Shown here piece after piece: positions 10,998 through 22,960 of a DNA stretch of 64,000 nucleotides. A model generated the notes under the pieces. That model did not search any database. It was not told where the DNA came from and worked only from the letters and a program-made list of their open reading frames with translations. The stretch lies in the NCBI RefSeq assembly GCF_005502745.1, contig NZ_SCNL01000004.1:62001-126000 (forward strand), read 5' to 3'. Every line of letters begins with the position of its first letter. Positions within the stretch are counted from its first letter, which is position 1. The translations under genes and the position numbers were made by a program. Origin of the DNA: Sphingomonas sp. 3P27F8 (GTDB lineage Bacteria; Pseudomonadota; Alphaproteobacteria; Sphingomonadales; Sphingomonadaceae).

Positions 10998-11107
10998 GCA
11001 CGAATCATAGCAACGCGCGCGCTTGCTTGCACCTTGGCGAAGAACCCGCATAACAAGTGTTACGGAAAAGCCGATCCAAATCGGCCGACGACGGAGAGGA
11101 AAGCTCG

Positions 11108-11848
11108 ATGCCCCACCCCCTGTTCGATCTCAGCGGCAAGATCGCACTCATCACCGGCGGATCGCGCGGGTTGGGCCGGGAAATGGCACTCGCTTTCGCG
11201 GATGCGGGCGCCGACATCATCATCTCAAGTCGCAAGGCGGAAGCATGTGAAGCCGTGGTGGCGGAGATCGCCGCCAAGGGCCGCCGCGCGCTCGCGCTGC
11301 CCGCCCATGCCGGTAAATGGGATGAGATGGACCGCCTTGCGGCAGATGCCTGGGATGCATTCGGCCGGATCGACATCCTTGTGGCCAATGCCGGGATGGG
11401 GCCGCTCGTTCCCAGCCACGAAGTGTCCGAGTCTCTGTTCGACAGTGTTGTGGGGCTGAACTTCAAGGGGCCGTTCCGCCTGATCGCCAATATCGCGCAC
11501 CGCATGACGCAGAATGATGGCGGAACGATCCTGGCCACCTCCTCGATCGCCTCGCTGCGCCCGACGCCGCAGGTCGTACCCTATGCCGGTGCGAAGGCGG
11601 CGCTCAACGCGATGGTAGCGAGCATGGCGCACGAATACGGGCCGAAGGTACGCATCAATGCGATCGCGGCCGGCCCGTTCCTTACCGACATCGCCAAGGC
11701 ATGGACCGAGGATGCGCGCGAACGCACCGACAGCGCGCTGGGTCGCCCCGGTCGCCCGGAGGAAGTCGTCACCAGCGCACTATTCCTCGCCAGCCCGGCA
11801 TCGAGCTTCGTCACCGGCACCGTGCTCCGCTGCGACGGTGGGTGCTGA
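11108..11848 (+). CDS. Short-chain dehydrogenase/reductase, glucose/3-oxoacyl reductase type
   Basis: NAD(P)-dependent oxidoreductase of 246 residues with the classical SDR layout: dinucleotide motif TGGSRGLG near 14-21, NAGMG, catalytic Ser in ATSSIAS, and YAGAK with the catalytic Tyr and Lys. The C-terminus SFVTGTVLRCDGGC matches the family's final strand. Substrate not determinable. ATG 11108 has GAGAGGAAAG upstream. It converges with the CysQ-like gene, whose stop lies 8 bp away. Confidence 0.9.
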   Translation: MPHPLFDLSGKIALITGGSRGLGREMALAFADAGADIIISSRKAEACEAVVAEIAAKGRRALALPAHAGKWDEMDRLAADAWDAFGRIDILVANAGMGPLVPSHEVSESLFDSVVGLNFKGPFRLIANIAHRMTQNDGGTILATSSIASLRPTPQVVPYAGAKAALNAMVASMAHEYGPKVRINAIAAGPFLTDIAKAWTEDARERTDSALGRPGRPEEVVTSALFLASPASSFVTGTVLRCDGGC

Positions 11849-11856
11849 TCGGGCAA

Positions 11857-12693
11857 TCAACGTGTGACGAAAGGACGGAGCGGCGCCGGATGATAAAGCC
11901 CGCAGGCGACAAAGCCGGTGTTGCGGAACCCGGCCTTGCCATAGCGAAACGGCTGGTTGTCCAGATCGACGGTAGTGCCACCGGCAGCTCGCAGCACGGC
12001 ATCACCGGCGGCGGTATCCCATTCCATCGTCGGGCCGGTGCGGGGATATACGTCCGCCTCCCCGCTCGCGACCAACACGAACTTCAGGCTCGATCCGACA
12101 GACACGCAATCGCAGATTCCGCCGGCATCCAGCCATGCGGCGGTGGCAGGATCGACGTGGCTGCGCGAGGCGACGGCGCACGGCGGAACATGAACCGGGC
12201 GAACCGAGATCGCCGCCGCGGCGCCCCGCGTCGCGAACGGCGTGCGATCGGCGCGCCACGCGGTCCCAGCGGTCGCATCGCCCCAGTAAAGCGCCTGGCG
12301 CGCCGGGGCATAGACCACGCCCATCGTCGGAGCGCCCTGCTCGATCAAGCCGATATTGACCGTGAAATCATCCCCGCGGCGGATGAATTCCTTGGTCCCA
12401 TCGAGCGGATCGACGAGGAAGAACGCGCCATCCACATCCGGCACGCGCCCCGCCGCGGCCTCTTCCTCTGCCACCACCGGGATATGCGGCGCGATTTCAT
12501 AAAGGCCGGCGAGAATTGCCGCCTCGGCCGCCTGATCCGCCGCCGTGACGGGCGATTCGTCGGCCTTGATCGTGACGGCCGCGCCCTCGATGAAGTGCCG
12601 CCACACGATATCGCCGCCAGCTTCCGCCAGCGCCACCAGCGCGTCCATCAATGTCGCGCGGTCCAGCCCGTCCACGCCCGCTTTGCCCGTCAT
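11857..12693 (-). CDS. cysQ: 3'(2'),5'-bisphosphate nucleotidase (CysQ-like, inositol monophosphatase family)
   Basis: Mg-dependent phosphatase of 278 residues, expected to hydrolyse 3'-phosphoadenosine 5'-phosphate released in sulfate assimilation. The family motifs are visible: KADESPVTAAD near the N-terminus, VVAEEEA (metal-binding Glu), VDPLDGTKEFI (Asp, Asp), and EWDTAAGDAVLRAAGG near the C-terminus. The TKEF segment after the DPLDG motif favours CysQ over inositol or histidinol phosphatases. The second of two close ATGs is chosen because AGGGA sits 6 nt before it; the alternative is 6 nt upstream. No sulfur genes are adjacent. Confidence 0.85.
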   Translation of the reverse strand: MTGKAGVDGLDRATLMDALVALAEAGGDIVWRHFIEGAAVTIKADESPVTAADQAAEAAILAGLYEIAPHIPVVAEEEAAAGRVPDVDGAFFLVDPLDGTKEFIRRGDDFTVNIGLIEQGAPTMGVVYAPARQALYWGDATAGTAWRADRTPFATRGAAAAISVRPVHVPPCAVASRSHVDPATAAWLDAGGICDCVSVGSSLKFVLVASGEADVYPRTGPTMEWDTAAGDAVLRAAGGTTVDLDNQPFRYGKAGFRNTGFVACGLYHPAPLRPFVTR

Positions 12694-12826
12694 GTCCATT
12701 CCCTGTCGATAGCGGCAAAGCAGACCGCCATGCCAGCAAGCTTTCCTATCCCGCCAGTTCGCGACTATGCGAAAAAGGCTGGTCGCAACCGCACGACTCA
12801 CACGTTCATTCATAGGAGAGAATGCC

Positions 12827-13210
12827 ATGTTCAGTCACATGATGGTCGGTTCGAACGACATCGATCGTTCGCGCAAGTTCTACGACTCGCTGTTCGGCGC
12901 GATCGGCGGCAAGCCGGGTATCCAGGATCCCAAGGGCCGGTTGATCTACATGCACAACGGCAACATGTTTCTTGTCACCCCGCCAATAGACGGGAAGCCC
13001 GCGACGCACGGGAACGGCAGCACGATCGGCTTCGCGGTCGACGGGCCGGAACAGGCGAATGCGTGGCACAAGGCCGGTGTGGAAGCCGGCGGGACCGCGA
13101 TCGAGGATGCGCCGGGCGTCCGTGAAAATCCCGGCATGAACCTCTATCTCGCGTATCTGCGCGATCCGGACGGCAACAAGCTCTGCGCGCTGCACCGTAT
13201 GCCAGCGTAA
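12827..13210 (+). CDS. VOC (glyoxalase/dioxygenase fold) family protein
   Basis: A 127-residue vicinal-oxygen-chelate protein. The pairs of beta-alpha-beta-beta-beta units are visible (SHMMVGSNDIDRSRKFYDSL; then FAVDGPEQANAWHKAGVEAG and LAYLRDPDGNKLCALH). His4 and Glu-like positions could bind a metal. Members include glyoxalase-like and resistance proteins; the reaction here is unknown. ATG 12827 follows AGGAGAGAATGCC. It converges with the P450 gene across a shared hairpin. Confidence 0.85.
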   Translation: MFSHMMVGSNDIDRSRKFYDSLFGAIGGKPGIQDPKGRLIYMHNGNMFLVTPPIDGKPATHGNGSTIGFAVDGPEQANAWHKAGVEAGGTAIEDAPGVRENPGMNLYLAYLRDPDGNKLCALHRMPA

Positions 13211-13216
13211 CGCCGC

Positions 13217-13248
13217 GGGGCGCCGTGCGCTGCTTGCGCCGGCGCCCC
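13217..13248. terminator. Bidirectional hairpin between VOC and P450 genes
   Basis: GGGGCGCCG / CGGCGCCCC, 9-bp perfect stem, with a GCGC/GCGC pairing inside the loop. It lies 6 bp after the VOC stop and 12 bp after the P450 stop on the opposite strand, so it probably serves both convergent genes. No U tract. Confidence 0.5.
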
Positions 13249-13260
13249 GATGCGAATGCG

Positions 13261-14616
13261 CTAGGCCGCCTGAGCCGCGCGCTCCGGGGTGAACTCCACC
13301 TCCAGCCGGCGTACCGCGTGAACGAAGTTGTTCGGCGCGATATCCATGTCGCCAGTCCAGCGGATATCGGGGAAACGCGTGAAGAGCTGGCGATAGGCCT
13401 CCTCGAGCTGCAGCTGCGCGGTCATGCGCCCGATGCAGATGTGCGGGCCATAGCCAAAGGCGATGTTCTTCTCGGCATTGGCGCGTGCGATATCGAACCT
13501 GTCGGGATCGGGGAACATGGCCGGATCGCGATTCGCCGCCCCGTAATACATGATGACCTTCTCGCCCTCCGCGATCCGCTGCCCGCCGACCTCGGTGTCG
13601 CGCGTCGCCGTGCGGCGCATGTAGATCACCGGCGATACCATTCGGGTAATCTCGTGCACGGCATTGGTGAGAAGCCCGGCGTCCGCCTGCAGCCGCGCCT
13701 TCTGTTCGGGATTCTCGGTGAACAGCTTCATTGCGCCCGACAGCGAGTTGCGCGTCGTGTCGTTGCCCGCGAACACGATCAGCAGCCACGCCCCATCGAG
13801 ATACGGATCGGGCAACGGATCGCCATCCACCACCGCATTGGCGATAGCGCTCATCAGATCCGCTTGCGGGTCCGCCCGCCGCTTCGCCAGCATGAAGCGA
13901 CCATATTCAAACATTTCGGCGACGTTCTTGTTGAACATTTCGATGAAGGCGGCAATCTGCGGGTTCGGCTCGGAAAGCCCGGCGAGCTGATCGATCTGCT
14001 CGGTCGCGACCTGCTGCGCCATTTCCAGGAAATGGATCCAGCCCATGAAGCGCTCGCGATCCTCCGGCGGCACCCCCAGCATCTCGCACAGCGTGAAGAT
14101 CGGCAGCCGCTGGCTGAATTTCTCCACCATGTCGCATTTGCCGAGCGGGGCCATCGTATCGAGCAGCCGCGTCACCTCTCCCGAAACGCGTTCGCGCAGC
14201 GTGCGGATATAACTGGCGGTAAAATACGGCATATGCTCCTTGCGGAGCTGTCGGTGCGGCCGGCCGTCCAGGTTTATCATCGAATTGGTGGAGGCGGAGA
14301 AAAGCGTCGGATGCCGCGTTTCCTCCGGCCCGAGCGCCATCAGGATGCCGCCGGTCTCCGAGCTGAACGTTTCGGGATCGCCATTTACCTGCTTCACCTC
14401 CTCGAACCCGGTGACCGCCCAGAAGCCTACCCCGCCGCGCGGCAATTCGTGCCACATCACCGGAGCCTCGGCGCGCATCCGGGCGAATTCCGCCCAAGGT
14501 TGCCCCTTGGTGAAGGAATAGATGTTCGTCAGGTCCACGTCCGGCAAGGTCGGGTGCACCGGCGGAAAGGTCGGGCCCGGCCGCCCCTCCACGATATGTT
14601 CGCTAACGAGCCGCAT
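13261..14616 (-). CDS. Cytochrome P450, last gene of a five-gene oxidative operon
   Basis: Soluble bacterial P450 monooxygenase of 451 residues. The oxygen-activating I-helix AGNDTTRN, the K-helix and the heme loop FGYGPHICIG (proximal Cys near 394) are intact. Overall it resembles the CYP108/CYP203-like soluble class that oxidises terpenes and similar small lipophiles; the subfamily cannot be fixed by eye. ATG 14616 follows GAGGAGAGAAG. No ferredoxin or ferredoxin reductase gene is adjacent, so electrons must come from elsewhere. It sits 11 bp after the epoxide hydrolase gene. Confidence 0.92.
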   Translation of the reverse strand: MRLVSEHIVEGRPGPTFPPVHPTLPDVDLTNIYSFTKGQPWAEFARMRAEAPVMWHELPRGGVGFWAVTGFEEVKQVNGDPETFSSETGGILMALGPEETRHPTLFSASTNSMINLDGRPHRQLRKEHMPYFTASYIRTLRERVSGEVTRLLDTMAPLGKCDMVEKFSQRLPIFTLCEMLGVPPEDRERFMGWIHFLEMAQQVATEQIDQLAGLSEPNPQIAAFIEMFNKNVAEMFEYGRFMLAKRRADPQADLMSAIANAVVDGDPLPDPYLDGAWLLIVFAGNDTTRNSLSGAMKLFTENPEQKARLQADAGLLTNAVHEITRMVSPVIYMRRTATRDTEVGGQRIAEGEKVIMYYGAANRDPAMFPDPDRFDIARANAEKNIAFGYGPHICIGRMTAQLQLEEAYRQLFTRFPDIRWTGDMDIAPNNFVHAVRRLEVEFTPERAAQAA

Positions 14617-14627
14617 CTCTTCTCTCC

Positions 14628-15608
14628 TCAATCGGGGAAGCGGCGCGCGATCCAGTCAAGGATCACACGGCTCACTTCCTCGGGTTTTTCCTGCTGCGTC
14701 CAATGCCCCGATCCGGCCACCATATGCCGGTCAAGATCGGGCACATATTTCTCCATCCCATCCGCCATCGACGGCGGCAGGACATGATCGCTTTCGGCGG
14801 TAATCATCAGCGCGGGACAATCCACGCGATCAACGATCGCCGACGATCGCTCCCAGTTGCGGGTGAAATTGCGATACCAGTTGATCCCGCCGGTGAAGCC
14901 GGTGCGCGCGAACGTTTCGACGAACGCGCCGCGCTCCTCGTCGTCGAGCAACTGATGCTCGTCGCTCGCCGGATCATAATCCTCCAGCATCAGGCCCAGC
15001 GCGAAATTCTTCTGTTCGGCCGGCAGCGCGGCGAATTCCGCCGGGCTCATCTCGGGACGACGCATGAAGAAGCGAAACGTCTTGTCGACATCCTTCGCCA
15101 GTAATGCATCCGCCTCGCCCGGCTTCTGAAACCAGACGATATACATGTCCTCGCCCATCGCCATCCGCATCAGCGCGATCGGATCGGCCGAAAGGCGCGG
15201 AATGAACGGCGTGTTCAGCCCGATCACTCCCGCCACGCGCGCGGGATGGCGCAGCGCCATCTGCCACACGACGAAGCCGCCCCAGTCATGCCCGCAGAAC
15301 ACCGCCCGCTCGATTCCCTTGGCATCGAGCAGCCCGACCAGATCGGCGCAGAGATGCTCCATGTCATAGCTTTCGACCGCGTCGGGCCGATCGGTCAGGC
15401 CATAGCCGCGCTGGTCCGGCGCCAGCGCACGGTGGCCGGCAGCGCCAAACGCCGCAAGCTGATGCCGCCACGAATAAGCGAGTTCGGGGAAGCCGTGGCA
15501 GAACACCACGGGCATCCCTTCGCCCGCCACGTCATAGCAGGCCATGCGGATGCCGTTCGTCTCGACATGGGTTAGCGGGGGCATCCCTGGAAGTGCGCCC
15601 CCGCTCAT
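14628..15608 (-). CDS. Epoxide hydrolase-type alpha/beta hydrolase
   Basis: A 326-residue alpha/beta hydrolase with the epoxide hydrolase pattern: oxyanion HGFPE at 38-42, nucleophile Asp108 in GHDWGG, lid Tyr in GGINWYRNF, and the catalytic His in GSGHWTQQE. An Asp nucleophile rather than Ser argues for epoxide (or haloalkane) hydrolysis to a diol. The ATG overlaps the stop of the dehydrogenase gene (ATGA); a GTG 21 nt upstream is less likely. In the operon it would open epoxides made by one of the monooxygenases. Confidence 0.9.
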   Translation of the reverse strand: MSGGALPGMPPLTHVETNGIRMACYDVAGEGMPVVFCHGFPELAYSWRHQLAAFGAAGHRALAPDQRGYGLTDRPDAVESYDMEHLCADLVGLLDAKGIERAVFCGHDWGGFVVWQMALRHPARVAGVIGLNTPFIPRLSADPIALMRMAMGEDMYIVWFQKPGEADALLAKDVDKTFRFFMRRPEMSPAEFAALPAEQKNFALGLMLEDYDPASDEHQLLDDEERGAFVETFARTGFTGGINWYRNFTRNWERSSAIVDRVDCPALMITAESDHVLPPSMADGMEKYVPDLDRHMVAGSGHWTQQEKPEEVSRVILDWIARRFPD

Positions 15609-16675
15609 GGCCGCACCACTATCTTGCACTGCGCCTCCGGGTCGCCGAGCGCGCGGAAGGCGGCGGCCACGCCGTCCAGCCCCACCTCGCCAGTGATCGC
15701 TGCACGCACGTCAATCGTTCCCTCCGCGATATGGCGCAGGGTGATCGCGAATTCCTCGGGCGTATAGCCAAGCACGAATTTCAGCTCCAGGCTCTTGTTG
15801 ATGCAAAGGAACGGCTCGATCGCGTCGGTTTGCATACATACGCCGACGACCAGGATCTGCGTCCCCACCGGCACCGCTTCGATCAGCGACTGGATCACGC
15901 CCGGGACGCCGACGCATTCGAACACGACCGCGCGCTTGCCGGCAGCACCACCCATCGCCAGTATGGATCGCTCGGTTCGTGAATGCGGCACGCCCAGCGC
16001 GCCCCAGCGCAGATGCGGGTTCTCCACCGCGGGATCGATCGTGACATCCGCGCCGAACGCCTCGGCGATCCGGCGCCGCGCGGGCGAATAGTCCGAGGCC
16101 ACCACCGGCCCCAGCCCTCGCGCCTTGAGCGCCGCGATCACGGCCAATCCCACAGGGCCACAGCCGATCACCAGGTTAACCGTATCCGGCCCCGCATCGC
16201 TTTCTGCGACGGCATGTTCGCCCACCGCGAAGGGTTCGGTCATCGCCGCCTGCACGTCGGACAGACCATTGGGCACCGGCAACAGCATCTGCTCGGTCAG
16301 CACCATCGCCTCGCTGAAGCCGCCGGGGAAGCGATTGGAATAACCGATCGTCTCGAAACCCTGCGACGAAACAACGACCGGCATCGCCACGACACGCGTG
16401 CCGGCCTTCAGCCGCTTGTCCGTATCCGGCCCGTGATCGACGATCTCGGCGCAGAATTCGTGCCCGAACACGATATCCTGCGCGGGATCGATCAGCCCCG
16501 GCTCCCCGATGCGCCGCCCCAGCTCGACCATCTTCTCCATTGAATGGACCGCGTGAAGATCTGAGCCGCAGATGCCGCAGCACAATGTCCTGACCAGCAC
16601 CTGCCCGGCGCCAGGGGTCGGCTCCCGGAGTGTATCGACGACCAGTTCCGGTCCGCGCCGAACAACCGCGCGCAT
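15605..16675 (-). CDS. Zinc-dependent alcohol dehydrogenase family protein (MDR)
   Basis: Medium-chain dehydrogenase/reductase of 356 residues. Catalytic zinc ligands are present (Cys36 in CGICGSDLH, His72-Glu73 in GHEF), and the Rossmann motif is IGCGPVGLAV. The four-cysteine structural zinc lobe is absent, as in several MDR subgroups. A likely role is oxidation of the diol or alcohol produced by its operon neighbours. It is spaced 1 bp from the GST gene and overlaps the epoxide hydrolase start, so translation is probably coupled. Confidence 0.9.
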   Translation of the reverse strand: MRAVVRRGPELVVDTLREPTPGAGQVLVRTLCCGICGSDLHAVHSMEKMVELGRRIGEPGLIDPAQDIVFGHEFCAEIVDHGPDTDKRLKAGTRVVAMPVVVSSQGFETIGYSNRFPGGFSEAMVLTEQMLLPVPNGLSDVQAAMTEPFAVGEHAVAESDAGPDTVNLVIGCGPVGLAVIAALKARGLGPVVASDYSPARRRIAEAFGADVTIDPAVENPHLRWGALGVPHSRTERSILAMGGAAGKRAVVFECVGVPGVIQSLIEAVPVGTQILVVGVCMQTDAIEPFLCINKSLELKFVLGYTPEEFAITLRHIAEGTIDVRAAITGEVGLDGVAAAFRALGDPEAQCKIVVRP

Positions 16676-16676
16676 C

Positions 16677-17471
16677 TTAGCGCAGATCCGGGGAAAAGCG
16701 GATGTTGCCGCGCGCTATGCCTTGGCTGACCACCTCAAGCCCGCCCGATTTTATCATCCACTCCAGCCGGTGATCGCGATATTCGCGCTTGAACAGTCCC
16801 TGCTCGAGCAGGGCGGCAACATCGCCCATCCCACCGGCGGAAGCGATCTGCATCGCCTCCTCCATGGTGCGCGCGACCGACGGTCGCGCATTCGCACGGG
16901 CGAGCCACTGGCCCAGGCGCGAGCCCGGCATAGGCGAGATACCGTGCCCGACCGATCCATTTACATAGGGAATTACCGAGAGGTCGCCCCAGCCGAAAGT
17001 GTCGCCATTGAACCACGCCCCATCACCCAACGTGCGCTCGGCCCAGGCGAAATAGCCACGAACCTGCTCGATCGCGCGTGCGGTCAACGTTTCGCCCAGT
17101 TCGCCGGATGCGCGACGGAAATGACGTAATTCGGACAGCCCCCAGTTCACCGCTTCCAGATGCGTATCGACCACATCCTCGATCATCCGCGCTCGCGCGC
17201 GATCGATCGCGCGGGCGGGCAGCAGCGGAGGCGTGGGCCATGTATCCTCGATATATTCCAGGATGATCGTCGAATCGAAGATCGCCGCTCCATCATGCTC
17301 CAGCGCCGGCACCTCCGCGCGCGGGCTGGCGGCGATGAAATCGCCGGCCGCCCCACCCACGCCAATGCCCCCCGGCACGCGCGTCTCGAACGCGACATCC
17401 TTTTCGCGGAGCGCGATCTTCACCTTCTGCGCATAGGGCGACAGCGGGTGATCCCAGAGAATGACGGTCAT
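16677..17471 (-). CDS. Glutathione S-transferase family protein
   Basis: A 264-residue GST with a thioredoxin-fold N-terminal domain (LWDHPLSPYAQKVKIALREK, then EVPALEHDGAAIFDSTIILEYI, where the Ser/Thr binds the glutathione glutamyl group) and an all-helical C-terminal domain (FGWGDLSVIPYVNG). The ATG overlaps the stop of the monooxygenase gene (ATGA). Within the operon it could conjugate or isomerise reactive epoxides or detoxify by-products. Confidence 0.9.
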   Translation of the reverse strand: MTVILWDHPLSPYAQKVKIALREKDVAFETRVPGGIGVGGAAGDFIAASPRAEVPALEHDGAAIFDSTIILEYIEDTWPTPPLLPARAIDRARARMIEDVVDTHLEAVNWGLSELRHFRRASGELGETLTARAIEQVRGYFAWAERTLGDGAWFNGDTFGWGDLSVIPYVNGSVGHGISPMPGSRLGQWLARANARPSVARTMEEAMQIASAGGMGDVAALLEQGLFKREYRDHRLEWMIKSGGLEVVSQGIARGNIRFSPDLR

Positions 17472-18679
17472 TCCGCAGCGTCCTGTTTCTTGTCGAGCCC
17501 CATCGCCGCCAGGATTTCGGGCCGGATATTTTCCGTCCCTTTTTCCTGGATATGTTGTGCCAGCCGCGCGCCTACCGCGGCCTGCGCCTCTCCGATGAAG
17601 CGCGGGCGATTGTCCCGCGCCCACGTCAGCGAGGCATCGCGGCTGGGATTGAGATTCTGGAATTCGGGCATGACGTAACGGGCGATCAACTCGTAGGATT
17701 TCTTTTTGTCGTCCCACTCCGCCCAATTGGTATCGAGGGTCAGGAATGCTCCGAACCCTCCGGATTGCTGTTGCAGCCGCGCGATCTGCGCAATCGCGTC
17801 CGCCGGCGTGCCAACCACCGCCATGCCGCTCGCGACCAGCGCGTCGATCGGATCGCCATCGGTCGGGGCAAGCGGGAGCGCGGCGACCTCGCGGAAATAA
17901 TACAGCCAGTCCTCGATACCGAAACGCACCTGCGCCCGCGCCTCCTCGCGCGTGGCGGCGACATGCATCGGGCCGACCAGCCGCCAGGCTTCGCGATTCA
18001 TCCGCTGGCCGCTTTCGGCCGCCTTTTCCTCCGCGATCGCCCAGTTGGAAGCGAGCGCGTTGAAACCGCCGACCTGCGTCGCACCGATCGACAGGACGCC
18101 CACGCCATGCCGCCCGGCCGCCTGCGCGCCGGTCGGGGAGACCTGGCTGGCGACCGCGATCTCCACCGACGGGCGCGTATAGGGCGTCATCTGTAGCCGG
18201 GCCTCAGCCAGCTCGAACCAGTCGGTCTTTTTCGTAACGGTCTCGCCACGCAACAGCGGGACGAGCACATCGAGCGCCTCGTCCATCCGGTCGCGCTGCT
18301 TCGCCACCGGGATACCCATCATGAACGCGTCCGAGGGCAGCGCCCCCGGCCCCACACCAAACATGACGCGCCCGCGCGTCATGTGATCGAGTTGGTTGAT
18401 GCGATCCGCCAGAATCAGCGGATGGTGATAGGGAAGTGACGAAACGCCGGTTCCCAGCCTGATGTTTTTCGTGCGCTCGGCGGCGAAAGCGATGAAGAGT
18501 TCCGGGCTCGCGATCAGCTCGTAGCCGGCGGAATGATGCTCGCCGATCCACGCTTCGTCATAGCCGAGCTTGTCCAGGTGAACGACGAGATCGAGATCGC
18601 GCTCGATCGCCTGCGTGGGATTTTCGCGCAGCGGATGGAACGGTGCGATGAACGTGCCGAATCGCAGCTTCTGCCCCAT
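17468..18679 (-). CDS. LLM-class flavin-dependent monooxygenase (limonene monooxygenase-like)
   Basis: First gene of the operon: a 403-residue luciferase-like (bacterial F420/FMNH2 TIM barrel) monooxygenase. N-terminal RFGTFIAPFHPLRENPT, LGYDEAWIGEHHSAGYE, SLPYHHPLILADR and RGRVMFGVGPGALPSDA match what I recall of the limonene 1,2-monooxygenase LimB group. Such enzymes use reduced FMN supplied by a separate reductase; none is adjacent. ATG 18679 follows AAGGAGAGACGGGATT. It begins 74 bp after the ccmH stop on the same strand, so it could be read through from the ccm genes or have its own promoter there. Confidence 0.9.
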   Translation of the reverse strand: MGQKLRFGTFIAPFHPLRENPTQAIERDLDLVVHLDKLGYDEAWIGEHHSAGYELIASPELFIAFAAERTKNIRLGTGVSSLPYHHPLILADRINQLDHMTRGRVMFGVGPGALPSDAFMMGIPVAKQRDRMDEALDVLVPLLRGETVTKKTDWFELAEARLQMTPYTRPSVEIAVASQVSPTGAQAAGRHGVGVLSIGATQVGGFNALASNWAIAEEKAAESGQRMNREAWRLVGPMHVAATREEARAQVRFGIEDWLYYFREVAALPLAPTDGDPIDALVASGMAVVGTPADAIAQIARLQQQSGGFGAFLTLDTNWAEWDDKKKSYELIARYVMPEFQNLNPSRDASLTWARDNRPRFIGEAQAAVGARLAQHIQEKGTENIRPEILAAMGLDKKQDAAE

Positions 18680-18753
18680 AATCCCGTCTCTCCTTGCAAC
18701 ATAACTTTTGTTCTGCAGCGCAGGCTATGGGAGAGTTGCGGGAGAATCCAGTC

Positions 18754-19179
18754 CTATTCGGTGCTGCGTTTACGTCGACGGAAGCTGCCCCGCGCGATCC
18801 ACGCGCCGAACGCCAGCAGCGCCAGCGGCGCGACCCACAATGGCCATGTCACCGCAGAGAAAGGCGGATCGAAGGTGATATAATCCCCGTATCGCGCGAT
18901 CAGCCAGGTGCGGATCGAGTCGGGCTTTTCGCCCGCGGCGATGCGCTGGCGGATCAGGGCGCGCATGTCGCCGGCCATGTCGGCGTCGCTGTCCGCGACC
19001 GACTGACCCTGACAGACGACGCAACGTATCGTCTCCATCAGCGCCTTGGCCTGCGCCTCCTGCTCCGGATCGTGGAGCTGGGTGTAGGCGAGCGCGGCGG
19101 GCGGCAGCCCCGAATCCGCACTCACTGGCGCGGCGGCTGCCAATAGGAGTGCGAGCCCTATCGCGGCGGCGCTCCTCAT
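18754..19179 (-). CDS. ccmH: Cytochrome c-type biogenesis protein CcmH
   Basis: Periplasmic, membrane-anchored thiol protein that holds apocytochrome c for heme attachment. A signal segment at the N-terminus (ALLLAAAAPVSA), the redox motif IRCVVCQGQS near 51-60 and a C-terminal membrane helix (WPLWVAPLALLAFGAWIA) match short-form CcmH of 141 residues. Its ATG overlaps the ccmG stop. No ccmI-like gene follows; the LLM gene does. Confidence 0.95.
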   Translation of the reverse strand: MRSAAAIGLALLLAAAAPVSADSGLPPAALAYTQLHDPEQEAQAKALMETIRCVVCQGQSVADSDADMAGDMRALIRQRIAAGEKPDSIRTWLIARYGDYITFDPPFSAVTWPLWVAPLALLAFGAWIARGSFRRRKRSTE

Positions 19180-19703
19180 TTCGCATCCCGCCAGGCGCGG
19201 AATATCGCATCGACGTCATCGGCGCGGATATCGCCGACATGCTGCTTGACGATCCTTCCGGCCCCATCGATCACGAAAGTTTCCGGCACGCCCGAGGATC
19301 CGAGCGAAAGCTGCACCTGGCTCGTCCTATCGTCCCCGATCGCGCGATAGGGATCGCCGTATCGCGTCAGAAAGTCGCGCACAGCCGGCCCGGTATCGCG
19401 GATCGCAATCGCGTCGATCGGCACGCCCAGCGCCTTCAGCCGCAATAGTTGCGGCGCCTCTGCGACGCACGGGATGCACCAGCTTGCGAACACGTTGAGC
19501 AGACGCGGCCGGCCGGCACGGAACCCTGCCGCCGCCACGCCCTGCTTCCCCTCCACCAAGGCAGGCAGGACGAAATCGGGCACGGGTTTGCCCACCATCG
19601 CTGAACGCACGGTGCGGTCGGCTGGCTTCATCAGTTCGCGCGCCGCGAAGGCAACCACCACCAGCAGCGCGGCGAGCGGCAGCCACAGCAGCCAGCGCCT
19701 CAT
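19176..19703 (-). CDS. ccmG: Thiol:disulfide interchange protein CcmG/DsbE
   Basis: Membrane-tethered periplasmic thioredoxin-like protein that reduces apocytochrome c or CcmH. An N-terminal anchor (WLLWLPLAALLVVVAFAA) precedes the thioredoxin domain with FASWCIPCVAEAP (active-site Cys pair) and GVPETFVID (the cis-Pro/GVPE insert typical of CcmG). The chosen ATG overlaps the ccmF stop (ATGA); another ATG 6 nt upstream has a GAGG closer to it and is possible. About 175 residues. Confidence 0.95.
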   Translation of the reverse strand: MRRWLLWLPLAALLVVVAFAARELMKPADRTVRSAMVGKPVPDFVLPALVEGKQGVAAAGFRAGRPRLLNVFASWCIPCVAEAPQLLRLKALGVPIDAIAIRDTGPAVRDFLTRYGDPYRAIGDDRTSQVQLSLGSSGVPETFVIDGAGRIVKQHVGDIRADDVDAIFRAWRDAK

Positions 19704-21634
19704 TGCCATGCCGCCTCGTCGGCGCGCCGGCGCGCCCGGCGTTCGCGCAGGACGTGGCCCACCATCGACAGCGCGCCGCCGAGCGCGACGAGCGCGCCGC
19801 CGAACCAGATGAATGTTATCCACGGCTTCCACCACAGGCGAAGCTGTATCCGCCCGGCATCGTCGGGCTGGCCGAGCACCGTGTAGAGCTGCCCGTCGAG
19901 CACCGTTTCGATCGCGCTTTCGCTCGTCGTCGTGACCGGATTGGAGAAGAAGCGCGATTGCGGCCGCAGATAGAATATCTCGCCGTCCTCGCCGCGCTTT
20001 ACCGCCAGCCTCGCCTCCAGGGCCGACCAGTTCGCGCCGATCACCGGGTTAAGCCCCTCGAACGTGACGCTATACGGCCCGACGCGCAGCGGCTCGCCCA
20101 CCCGCGCCGCGACCAGCCGCTCCTGCGTCCACGCGGTCGAGGCTGCCATGCCCGCCAGGCTAACCGCGATGCCGAGATGCGCGATCACCATGCCATAAAG
20201 GAAGAGCGGCGCGCGGCGCAGATCGCGCTTCCAGAGCGGCGCGACACTGGCCACCGCCAGACCCGCCGCCAGCGACAGCCCGGCAAGCTGCATCCACCCG
20301 ATCCCGCCGGACAGTACGAAGACGCCGGCGGCGGTGAAGACGGTCGCCGCGATCGGCCAGGTCAACCGCTCGACCACCGCCTGCGCCTCGTCGCGCCGCC
20401 AGCGCAGCAGCGGGCCCGCCGCCATGACCGCCACCAGCACCAGCGCGATCGGCCCCGCCGTCTTGTCGAAAAACGGCGGCCCCACCGAAAGCTGCGTACC
20501 CATCGCCGCCGCGACGATCGGGTAGAAAGTGCCGATCAGCACGATGCCCAGGATAACCGAAAGCAACAGATTGTTCGCGACCAGCGCGCCTTCGCGGCTC
20601 ACCAGGTCGAAGGTATTGCCCGCGCGCACCGTGCCGATCCGCATTGCGAACAGCGTCAGCGCGCCGCCGATATAGATCGCCAGCAAGGCGAGGATGAACG
20701 CCCCGCGCTCCGGGTCGACCGCGAAAGCATGCACGCTCGTGAGAATCCCCGAGCGCACCAGGAAAGTGCCGATCATCGACATGGAAAAAGCGACAACCGC
20801 CAGCATCACCGTCCACGCCCGAAGGCCGTCGCGAGTCGCCAGCACCGTTACCGAGTGAAGCAGCGCGGTCGCCGCCAGCCATGGCATCAGCGAAGCGTTC
20901 TCCACAGGATCCCAGAACCACCAGCCACCCCATCCCAGTTCGTAATAGGCCCAGTAGCTGCCTGCGGTGATCCCGAGCGTCAGGAATATCCATGCTCCAA
21001 GAACCCACGGCCGCATCGCCCGTGCGAAGGCTGGGCCGACGTCGCGTGTCACCAGCGCGCCGATCGCGAAGGAAAAGGCCACCGACAGCCCGACATAGCC
21101 GATGTAGAGCGTGGGTGGGTGGAAGGCGAGGCCGGGATCCTGCAACAGCGGATTCAGCCCCTGCCCGTCGGCCGGAGCGGGATCGAGCCGCGCGAACGGG
21201 TTCGAGGCGAAGAGCAGAAACGCATAGAAGCCGAGCGCAATCGCCGCCTGCCCGCCAAGCGTCGCGATCAGCGTACGCTCATCCAGACGCCGCTCGATCA
21301 GCGCGACCGCACCGCCTGCAAGCCCCAGGATCGTGACCCACAGCAGCATCGAGCCTTCGTGGTTCCCCCACGCGCCCGCGAACTTATAGAGAAGTGGTTT
21401 GGCGGAGTGGCTGTTCTCCGCGACCAGCGCGACCGACATGTCGGATACGCAGAACTCCGCGATCAGCGCTACCATCGCGAGTGCCGCGAAAAGCCCCTGC
21501 ACGATCGCGACCGGTCGCACTGCCGCGAGCAGCGTCGTGTCCACGCGGCGCACCGCGAGCCCGGCAAGCAGCAGTTGCAGCGCGGCGAGCGCGGCGGCGA
21601 ACCACAAGGCGGCAAGGCCTGCCTCCGCGGTCAT
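19700..21634 (-). CDS. ccmF: Cytochrome c heme lyase subunit CcmF
   Basis: Large polytopic inner-membrane protein (644 residues) that works with CcmH to ligate heme to apocytochrome c. The tryptophan-rich WWFWDPVENAS motif, the preceding AGSYWAYYELGW, and many membrane helices identify CcmF. It leads a ccmF-ccmG-ccmH unit with ATGA overlaps at both junctions. ccmE, which normally lies just upstream, and ccmABCD are not in this window. Confidence 0.97.
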   Translation of the reverse strand: MTAEAGLAALWFAAALAALQLLLAGLAVRRVDTTLLAAVRPVAIVQGLFAALAMVALIAEFCVSDMSVALVAENSHSAKPLLYKFAGAWGNHEGSMLLWVTILGLAGGAVALIERRLDERTLIATLGGQAAIALGFYAFLLFASNPFARLDPAPADGQGLNPLLQDPGLAFHPPTLYIGYVGLSVAFSFAIGALVTRDVGPAFARAMRPWVLGAWIFLTLGITAGSYWAYYELGWGGWWFWDPVENASLMPWLAATALLHSVTVLATRDGLRAWTVMLAVVAFSMSMIGTFLVRSGILTSVHAFAVDPERGAFILALLAIYIGGALTLFAMRIGTVRAGNTFDLVSREGALVANNLLLSVILGIVLIGTFYPIVAAAMGTQLSVGPPFFDKTAGPIALVLVAVMAAGPLLRWRRDEAQAVVERLTWPIAATVFTAAGVFVLSGGIGWMQLAGLSLAAGLAVASVAPLWKRDLRRAPLFLYGMVIAHLGIAVSLAGMAASTAWTQERLVAARVGEPLRVGPYSVTFEGLNPVIGANWSALEARLAVKRGEDGEIFYLRPQSRFFSNPVTTTSESAIETVLDGQLYTVLGQPDDAGRIQLRLWWKPWITFIWFGGALVALGGALSMVGHVLRERRARRRADEAAWQ

Positions 21635-21773
21635 GCCACCGGCTTTCGTGCAGTCTTCTCTATATTCACGCTTATCTCGCTACTGTCCCGAACGTGACGG
21701 CCGCCGGTCCGCGCCGCTCTTGCGGCACGGGGGCACGCGATACAAGGTCAACGACTATCCGATATACGCGCGA

Positions 21774-22253
21774 TCAATCCTGTGGCGGCGGATTGGTGCC
21801 TTCCTGCTGGGCCCGCTTGATCGCCTGCCGCTCCAGATACCATTGGCGCGCGTTCATCTGCGAACAGCCGCTCTGTCCGCCGGTGCCGACCGCCGAGCAG
21901 GTATCGGGCAGTCCGCCGGCGGTACGGCCCACCTCGTCCATGCTTTGCGCCCGATTGACCCAGCTCTGATTCTTCGCCGGCACTTCCGGCGGACGACGCA
22001 ATTCCTTGGGCACGCGGTACTGATCGTTGGGATCAAGCCGGTTACACACCACCACCTCGCTCGAGCTGGAGGCGGGACATTTCTCACTGCCGGTGAGCGT
22101 CACGCTTCGGATTCGCTTGGGTGGCTGGCCGGTTTGCGCCTGCGTTTCCTGATGAACGGTCTCGCCCGAGGCAGCGGCGGGTTGCGCTGCCTGCCCGGCC
22201 AGCGCCGCTGCGGGCAGGAGCGCGAAAGCCGCGATCATCAGGGGGCGGAACAT
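21774..22253 (-). CDS. Secreted hypothetical protein
   Basis: A 159-residue protein with a signal peptide ([19 protein letters not shown]). The mature part contains [17 protein letters not shown] and two Cys in its C-terminal third ([19 protein letters not shown]), compatible with a disulfide. It ends with a charged Gln/Arg/Pro tail. The arrangement is familiar from sphingomonad hypothetical proteins, but no function is known to me. ATG 22253 follows GAGGAGACCAGCCG. Divergent from trpG. Confidence 0.75.
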
Positions 22254-22390
22254 CGGCTGGTCTCCTCGGTATGCAACGTAACGTCGCCTGGCCGGGTTGT
22301 ATCCCGCCTGAACGTCGCGATCCAATTACTTCATGTTTCCCGAGCGCAACAGTCGTTGCGATGGCGGACGAATGGAGTAAGGCGGCCGGG

Positions 22391-22960
22391 ATGATCCTTG
22401 TCGTCGACAATTATGACAGCTTCACCTGGAACCTTGTCCATTATCTGATGGAGCTTGGCGCCGGGGTGAAGGTTGTGCGCAACGACGCGCTGACCGTGGC
22501 GGAGGCGCTGGCCACCAACGCTACCGGCTTTCTGATCTCGCCCGGCCCGCGCACACCTAACGAGGCGGGGATCAGCCTCGATCTGGTCGCGGCCTGCGCG
22601 GCGGCTGGAAAGCCGCTGCTCGGTGTGTGTCTCGGGCACCAGTCGATCGGCCAGCATTTCGGCGGCAGGGTCGTGCGTGGCGGCCTGATGCACGGCAAGA
22701 CCTCTCCGGTGACGCATGACGGGACGGGCGTGTTCGCGGGCCTGCCCTCCCCCTTCACCGCCACGCGTTATCACTCGCTGATCGTAGAGGGTGTGCCCGA
22801 TGTGCTCGCGGTCAACGCCACCGCGCCGGACGGGTCGGTGATGGGGCTGCGCCATCGCGTGCTGCCGATCCACGGCGTTCAGTTCCACCCGGAGAGCATC
22901 GCGACCGAGCATGGCCACGCCCTGCTCGCCAATTTCGTGAAGCTGACCGACGCGGCATGA
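22391..22960 (+). CDS. trpG: Anthranilate/aminodeoxychorismate synthase glutamine amidotransferase subunit
   Basis: Class I glutamine amidotransferase (189 residues) that supplies ammonia to the anthranilate synthase chorismate subunit. [19 protein letters not shown] opens it; [10 protein letters not shown], the nucleophile Cys in [10 protein letters not shown], and HPES with the catalytic His/Glu pair are present. It leads a trpG-trpD-trpC-moaC run with ATGA overlaps. trpE is not adjacent. PabA-type use in folate synthesis is possible as the same subunit often serves both. An in-frame ATG 30 nt upstream is less likely. Confidence 0.94.

Follow-up and report, generated by a model that had tools for sequence, protein, structure and literature searches.

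The window analysed here, 64,000 nucleotides of Sphingomonas sp. 3P27F8 (contig NZ_SCNL01000004.1, positions 62,001 to 126,000), carries five adjacent genes encoding a luciferase-like flavin monooxygenase (LLM), a glutathione S-transferase (GST), a zinc-dependent alcohol dehydrogenase (ADH), an epoxide hydrolase (EH) and a cytochrome P450. Judged by their sequences, these genes constitute one real, conserved and closely packed operon, and the occurrence of the same operator-like site before all members in several genomes points to a single predicted regulon, to which an alpha-methylacyl-CoA racemase gene elsewhere in the genome would also belong. Most is learned from this regulatory connection with the racemase, and a limonene-like pathway is, on the comparative evidence, not the best fit. 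The operon probably helps the cell to use branched, terpene-derived lipids; we lean, if only slightly, towards a five-gene unit with a small, repressor-controlled regulon that would feed methyl-branched isoprenoid lipids into beta-oxidation. The unit and its site comprise the following features:

17468 to 18679, minus strand: LLM (bacterial luciferase-like) flavin monooxygenase, first gene (Pfam PF00296, E 1e-43)
16677 to 17471, minus strand: glutathione S-transferase (Pfam; Ser11 kept)
15605 to 16675, minus strand: zinc-dependent medium-chain alcohol dehydrogenase, (R,R)-butanediol dehydrogenase-like (Pfam, PDB match)
14628 to 15608, minus strand: alpha/beta-fold epoxide hydrolase, EphA / soluble EH type (PDB EphA 5cw2, E 6e-73)
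13261 to 14616, minus strand: cytochrome P450, with CYP125MRCA, CYP268A2, CYP126, CYP142 and CYP124 nearest among solved structures (Pfam, PDB matches)
18700 to 18715, no strand assigned: operator-like near-palindrome CATAACTTTTGTTCTG, 20 bp before the LLM start (upstream comparison, matrix scan)

The five open reading frames (ORFs) occupy positions 13261-18679 in the order LLM-GST-ADH-EH-P450 (all coordinates were checked), and their likely start codons, all ATG, are located at 18679, 17471, 16675, 15608 and 14616, respectively. The first-pass annotation had read the tightly packed minus-strand genes as one unit, which is borne out by the coordinates, by two ATGA overlaps of 4 bp (LLM/GST and ADH/EH) and by gaps of 1 bp (GST/ADH) and 11 bp (EH/P450). 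Pfam assigned the products to Bac_luciferase, GST_N/GST_C, ADH_N/ADH_zinc_N, Abhydrolase_1 and p450. The residues checked are invariant in all five enzymes save for one LLM position (24 of 26 rows): Ser11 of the GST (9/9 rows), Cys33, His72, Glu73 and Glu147 of the ADH (20/20), Asp108, Tyr156, Tyr245, Asp274 and His302 of the EH (12/12), and Cys394 and the ExxR residues of the P450 (26/26). Because of this invariance, and because orthologous blocks recur in relatives, the five-gene set does not represent a chance neighbourhood.

The site before the unit is a 16-bp near-palindrome with the consensus CATAAC-N4-GTTATG. In the upstream listing, the word CAGAACAAAAGTTAYG or a near-copy precedes the first gene of the unit, whichever gene leads: 22 of 23 P450/LLM units, headed by LLM, GST or P450, carry the site, which begins 28-60 nt upstream of the respective start codon. 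P450 copies that are not situated directly behind the cytochrome c maturation (ccm) genes adjoining the unit have sites of their own, CATAACGAAAGTTATG in G119 and CGTAACTAAAGTTATG in G044 (G numbers denote genomes of the genus sample, 151 in total with the window genome, G000, included). An independent test, in which a matrix built from 17 racemase sites alone was applied to the 120 bp before the 23 units, gave unit-site scores of 13.0-28.7 bits, the lowest in G036; the one unit without a site is that of G160. Searching seven genomes for the 15-letter core with one mismatch yielded 13 matches, seven before units, five before racemase genes and one before an acyl-CoA dehydrogenase gene, against two for the reversed control; for the window genome and G049 it returned the unit site alone. 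Across 2.78 Mb of fetched loci, many of them fetched for precisely the site-bearing genes, all matches of at least 20 bits lie before a unit or an unlinked P450, a racemase, a short-chain dehydrogenase/reductase (SDR), a nitronate-monooxygenase-like gene or one acyl-CoA dehydrogenase, the next best match scoring 16.4 bits. The matrix used for the 2.78-Mb, SDR and nitronate-monooxygenase scans was built partly from the unit sites and the G119 site, so that the finds there are not independent, whereas those at the SDR, nitronate-monooxygenase-like and G044 genes and with the racemase matrix are. At the unit and the nitronate-monooxygenase-like genes the site is near the start codon, and at the racemase 58-83 nt ahead of it, an arrangement that would fit a repressor. 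A LexA-like reading of AGAACAAAAGTTA was set aside, the site being an inverted repeat before lipid genes.

Within the window, only two positions exceed 20 bits, 18700-18715 and 11049-11064, compared to none in ten mononucleotide shuffles. The second belongs to an SDR gene:

11049 to 11064, no strand assigned: second operator-like site CATAACAAGTGTTACG, before the SDR gene (21.3 bits)
11108 to 11848, plus strand: SDR family dehydrogenase, predicted regulon member (Pfam adh_short, E 1e-50; site 43 bp upstream)

The same SDR is preceded by a perfect palindrome, CATAACAACTGTTATG, at the same place in G115 and G049. The identity of the alpha-methylacyl-CoA racemase was assessed with the G036 copy (PDB match to MCR with E 2e-115 and 390 bits, to Far racemase with 339, next non-racemase 124), to which the copy of the window genome is 81% identical. 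The 18 genomes of the 151 that match the G036 racemase best are the 17 P450 genomes and G007, and in 17 of these 18 the racemase is preceded by the site, 12 times without mismatch and in five genomes (G115, G007, G048, G049 and G000) with two or three. In 22 racemase regions, nitronate-monooxygenase-like genes, recognised by a sequence word, carry the site 17-38 bp upstream in eight of eight cases; one of these genes was confirmed as Pfam NMO. A single genome, G005, has the site 69 bp before an acyl-CoA dehydrogenase gene that is followed by two acyl-CoA ligases. Among 12 further racemase genomes that lack the P450, three have the site (with one or two mismatches), seven do not and two (G047 and G033) were unparsed. 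The three site-bearing copies reside in loci L284, L285 and L286 (G146, G097 and G008). The regulon may be older than the operon.

Racemases and acyl-CoA dehydrogenases of these families belong to the breakdown of methyl-branched acyl-CoA. The site they share with the operon makes methyl-branched acyl-CoA catabolism likelier than the diol-to-ketone oxidation of a cyclic alkene. The terpene-like substrate of the first-pass annotation is supported in the wide sense; a limonene-type route, ending in a diol-to-ketone step on a cyclic alkene, is not supported.

The P450 leads in the same direction. Among 454 distinct PDB sequences, the nine best matches are CYP125MRCA, a reconstructed CYP125 ancestor (twice, 287 bits), CYP268A2 (203), CYP126 (201), the unnamed P450 6hqw, CYP142 (twice, 189) and CYP124 (twice, 187). 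P450terp, a CYP108, reaches only 173 (8eul) and 172 bits (1cpt) against the 287, 203 and 201 of the three leading relatives, so that a CYP108-like P450 is not supported; an entry named CYP153A7 scored 164 bits. By sequence, the enzyme is related to the branched-lipid and sterol side-chain P450s (CYP124/125/126/142/268 group), and omega-hydroxylation of a branched chain would be its predicted activity. According to excerpts of a review of the mycobacterial enzymes, CYP124 prefers methyl-branched lipids, CYP124, CYP125 and CYP142 oxidise the cholesterol side chain and CYP126 prefers to bind aromatics (PMC6469627).

Several P450 relatives have other neighbourhoods. A plasmid search with the P450 returned only matches below 60%, the best among the matches listed at about 36%. 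In G160 (locus L196, 6191-13921), a 70% ortholog belongs to a cluster that also encodes an Rv3169-family protein, a FadD4-like ligase, two acyl-CoA dehydrogenases and an APH-type kinase with its 135-aa partner; this kinase pair also adjoins the P450 of G044. The palindrome directly upstream of P450 relatives of 50-52% in another genus (L197-L200) is a different one: L198 and L200 have CCTTAACGTGAACGTAAGG, and L197 and L199 have words very similar to it. Behind these P450s comes a gene of polyprenyl-synthetase type, as Pfam confirmed for L199, and three of the four loci have a TauD-type gene in front.

In an alternative, limonene-like catabolic route, the LLM would epoxidise a cyclic terpene; diol formation would fall to the EH, oxidation to the ketone to the ADH and further hydroxylation to the P450. 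The LLM is far from every solved member; its best PDB matches are an unnamed LLM (7bip, 79 bits) and 3,6-diketocamphane 1,6-monooxygenase (78 bits), the latter in favour of such a route, as are the joint presence of LLM, EH and ADH and the adjacency of ADH and EH in relatives. A match named limonene 1,2-monooxygenase was a single one among the 30 plasmid matches listed, with 30.7% identity and a name by annotation alone. The closest records in the species collection are from Sphingomonas, the LLM being 94% identical in an uncultured member of the genus. The nearest PDB match of the ADH is (R,R)-butanediol dehydrogenase. Against the route, the hydrolase is not of the small LimA type: it is closest in the PDB to EphA and mammalian soluble EH, and this match, together with the signature residues (an Asp nucleophile, an Asp-His pair and two lid tyrosines), upholds the earlier assignment of an alpha/beta-fold enzyme in place of LimA, which has another fold. 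The unit also lacks a reductase partner, the P450 is nearer to CYP125, CYP268 and CYP126 than to CYP108, the operator-like site is common to racemase and acyl-CoA dehydrogenase genes, and five of the 12 LLM genomes have no close EH, one of them (G007) being cut by a contig end. Taken together, a limonene-like pathway appears decidedly improbable.

As had been noted before, no flavin reductase or ferredoxin is encoded beside the unit, matches to Fer2, Flavin_Reduct and FMN_red being found only elsewhere in the genome. The ten Fer2 matches and one Flavin_Reduct match of the window genome are possible redox partners in trans. A 63% LLM paralog on another contig (G000:C39:36479-37663; locus L146:9386-10675) has an FMN_red (NADPH-dependent FMN reductase) gene directly upstream, whose product is a possible reductase for both LLM enzymes. 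On plasmid pSFD01 of Sphingopyxis sp. FD7 (L210), the genes behind an LLM relative of 47.5% encode enoyl-CoA hydratase, 3-hydroxyacyl-CoA dehydrogenase, acyl-CoA dehydrogenase and CoA ligase, and ribB lies farther along; by its gene content this is an acyl-CoA setting once more. On a contig labelled Verrucomicrobiales (L023), an LLM 81% identical to that of the window lies in a neighbourhood common to Caulobacter loci, and the contig is probably mis-binned.

The promoter side and the distal end of the operon are marked by the following features:

18724 to 18751, minus strand: promoter-like pair CTGGAT - 16 nt - CATAGC, directly upstream of the operator (inferred by eye)
18754 to 21634, minus strand: ccmF-ccmG-ccmH (cytochrome c maturation), positional marker of the unit outside the pathway (conserved neighbours)
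13216 to 13249, minus strand: terminator-like hairpin after the P450, without a T run (folding)

The gene that we take to be ccmH is situated 74 bp upstream of the unit; the names ccmF, ccmG and ccmH were presumed from the sequence. The promoter-like pair is conserved in an alignment of seven relatives and in a list of 28 upstream regions and is missed by a sigma-70 scan, which found no promoter-like site in 12700-22500 (mean of 1.9 in shuffles), so that internal promoters are neither shown nor excluded. The gene beyond the P450 end is convergent, and the 61-nt stretch with the hairpin folds with -40.6 kcal/mol (z -4.2; none of 200 shuffles equally stable). A CTCTCC/GGAGAG anti-Shine-Dalgarno hairpin upstream of the LLM was discarded as it folds like shuffles (z -0.76; 46 of 200 as stable), and an Rfam search of 12000-22500 gave no matches.

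As the first-pass annotation had proposed for comparison, the arrangement was followed through the sphingomonads, where synteny is indeed conserved and blocks recur mostly directly behind ccmF-G-H. The complete order LLM-GST-ADH-EH-P450 was found in this position in the window only and is the fullest form. Related versions are LLM-ADH-EH-P450 (G115, G049, G048 and L007), LLM-ADH-P450 (L008, L011, G035, G005 and G075), LLM-GST-ADH-P450 (L010 and Leaf412), GST-P450 (G021, G080, G088, G006 and G001) and P450 alone (G036, G013 and G014). The unit of S. ginsenosidimutans is of the LLM-ADH-P450 form. The distance between unit and ccm genes is about 0.1 kb in most cases, 0.7 kb in G080 and G088 and 2.5 kb, with intervening ORFs, in G021; the P450 of G119 lies about 7 kb from ccmF and those of G044 and G160 elsewhere. 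Some loci repeat one place, and counts are by distinct genomes or as labelled. Orthologs were found in 12 (LLM, at least 83%), 13 (ADH, at least 69%), 17 (P450, at least 71%), eight (EH, at least 62%) and six (GST, at least 76%) of the 151 genomes, with search cut-offs of E 1e-100 for EH and ADH and E 1e-70 for GST. LLM copies of 63% or less, ADH copies of 55-61% (G040, G065, G089 and G131) and GST copies of 50-56% (seven genomes) were left out of the co-occurrence. The ADH accompanies the LLM in all 12 LLM genomes and the P450 does so in 11; in the remaining one, G007, the contig ends within the ADH; all eight EH genomes have both ADH and P450, and all six GST genomes the P450. In the flanks (up to 10 kb) of 80 LLM loci, a GST of at least 56% was present in 20, mostly Parvibaculum-like, and an ADH of at least 56% in 16, Caulobacter included.

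In the five GST-P450 genomes, the ADH is found at a separate locus beside a flavin adenine dinucleotide (FAD) protein. Four of them, all but G006 at E 1e-100, also have the EH at this place, and four, all but G001, the LLM. Gene calling added an SDR for G001, G080 and G088, and for G001, G006 and G080 a TetR-like gene (Pfam for the G080 copies). The FAD protein (L152:11240-12763, with matches in G001, G006, G021 and G088) occurs, at E 1e-30, in exactly these five of the 151 genomes and not in the window genome, and in the PDB it matches, at E 0.001, only two polyene epoxidases, MonCI and Lsd18/LasC. Upstream of the LLM at this second locus (L012, L013, L014, L152, L207 and L208), another conserved word, CATAACRYGTT, was observed, with the TetR-like gene divergent from it in L012, L014 and L152; it may be the own operator of this regulator.

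The constancy of promoter and site while the gene set varies, and the fact that each enzyme type is individually common, would also be expected if unrelated enzymes without a common pathway had been inserted behind a conserved promoter next to ccmH. Such hitch-hiking is quite improbable in view of the second locus, at which G006, G021, G080 and G088 keep LLM and ADH together while GST-P450 lies behind ccm, and G001 keeps ADH-EH, and in view of the LLM-ADH and LLM-GST linkage that recurs in the Caulobacter-like and Parvibaculum-like loci. As to the history of the operon, the LLM-GST-ADH order in two separated clades (window and Leaf412) speaks for an ancient operon that was complete and later lost genes, whereas the arrangement with a second locus in Polymorphobacter speaks for the reverse course. 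Most small groups, for example the five GST-P450 genomes, are common to the ccmF and P450 trees, which disagree on the position of G119 and on the window joining the LLM-ADH-EH-P450 group and do not decide between the two directions.

GST, EH and P450 form a classic detoxification set, and the nitronate-monooxygenase-like gene would fit as well into a system in which these enzymes clear reactive xenobiotics under a regulator that senses electrophiles. This explanation is unlikely: the racemase and acyl-CoA dehydrogenase are carbon-catabolic rather than protective, and GST and EH are the very parts that are most often missing.

The preferred reading, branched-lipid catabolism, is favoured further by the acyl-CoA dehydrogenases and ligase around the 70% P450 of G160 and by the recurrence of the LLM linkage to ADH and GST in other families. 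Several observations weigh against it. Neither the P450 of G160 nor the four g75 P450s read (50-52%) have a site, and at the second locus, where five relatives carry LLM, ADH and EH, nothing of the operator type reaches 11 bits. G044 has a P450 site and no racemase site, and the presence of the racemase site in three of ten parsed genomes without the P450 means that it is not specific to the operon. The racemase site of the window genome, CATAACAAATGTCATG, differs from the search word at three positions, and unrelated three-mismatch words occur near -240 in G013 and G014; since such words arise by chance, the case for the five weaker racemase sites is their symmetry and the position that they share (-79 to -83). 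For the window genome, the genome-wide search covered the one-mismatch word only, and no nitronate-monooxygenase-like or acyl-CoA dehydrogenase gene with the site was seen there. A gene list read by eye showed no conserved regulator next to the racemase sites. The co-occurrence counts and Fisher values ignore kinship, the latter being descriptive only. None of LLM, EH and GST is essential, the first being absent from G001 and the other two from many relatives, and plain branched-lipid oxidation would not be expected to involve a GST.

From gene identities, signature residues, conserved order and the shared site, we infer repression, a substrate class and each of the following chemical steps. 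A repressor on CATAAC-N4-GTTATG would hold the regulon off, whose predicted members in the window genome are the five-gene unit, the SDR and the racemase; relatives would add the nitronate-monooxygenase-like flavoprotein and one genome the acyl-CoA dehydrogenase. The P450 would hydroxylate the chain, at the omega end or in allylic position, and ADH and SDR would oxidise the resulting alcohol. Ligases encoded elsewhere would produce the acyl-CoA, in which the racemase would turn the 2-methyl group and thereby let acyl-CoA dehydrogenases act. The LLM might oxidise a double bond or ketone, the EH open the epoxide and the GST take up reactive by-products; with the FAD protein missing at the above threshold, the epoxide would be made by the LLM or the P450. 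The EH and, in relatives, the epoxidase-like FAD protein suggest an unsaturated chain. Considering also the kinship of the P450 and the link to racemase and acyl-CoA dehydrogenase, the best single guess at the substrate is isoprenoid lipids such as phytol, farnesol, squalene or pristane-like chains. For the full proposal, a sphingomonad regulon for unsaturated isoprenoid lipids that combines one repressor, the racemase, the nitronate-monooxygenase-like enzyme, the SDR and a P450 operon with GST, LLM, ADH and EH coming and going behind a fixed promoter, we regard the case as evenly balanced. As part of it, the window would hold the fullest operon version, placing oxygenation, epoxide opening and branched-chain beta-oxidation under one switch.

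A hitherto unexplained mixed-enzyme operon can thereby be tested as a pathway, with partners named at other places in the genome, and methyl-branched, isoprenoid lipids are predicted as a substrate class for part of a widespread genus. In addition, the natural series from P450 alone to the five-gene operon allows the study of gene gathering and loss behind one promoter with the operator kept. No such enzyme set, operon or regulon was found in the titles and abstract beginnings of the open-licence papers that the searches listed.

One of the closest known systems is the mycobacterial oxidation of lipid side chains by CYP124, CYP125 and CYP142, which represent the nearest solved P450 group and are likewise followed by an acyl-CoA route, in which alpha-methylacyl-CoA racemase takes part. 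Here, in contrast, the host is an alphaproteobacterium, the P450 belongs to an operon with LLM, GST and EH, and the site has 16 bp with a 4-bp spacing compared to the 2-bp spacing of the KstR site. The Rhodococcus limBACD pathway for limonene resembles the operon in its combination of an LLM-type monooxygenase, an epoxide hydrolase and a dehydrogenase; it differs from it in the hydrolase family, the distant LLM, the P450 of another group and the racemase link. Polyene epoxidases of the MonCI/Lsd18 type act together with an epoxide hydrolase, and their distant FAD relative adjoins the ADH in five relatives (and the EH in four), yet this relative is absent from the window genome at E 1e-30, and, in the portions of the source used here, the epoxidases are biosynthetic enzymes of polyether producers (PMC10560226). 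For the pristane pathway of Alcanivorax borkumensis, a different host, the main text of the study contains no occurrence of luciferase, glutathione or racemase, the last of which counts against the proposed route (PMC6850023). Nevertheless, the excerpted account describes one P450 detected only on pristane, a methyl-branched alkane, and an alcohol dehydrogenase that is exclusive to or raised under this condition, and thus the same pairing of P450 and alcohol dehydrogenase for a methyl-branched chain (PMC6850023).

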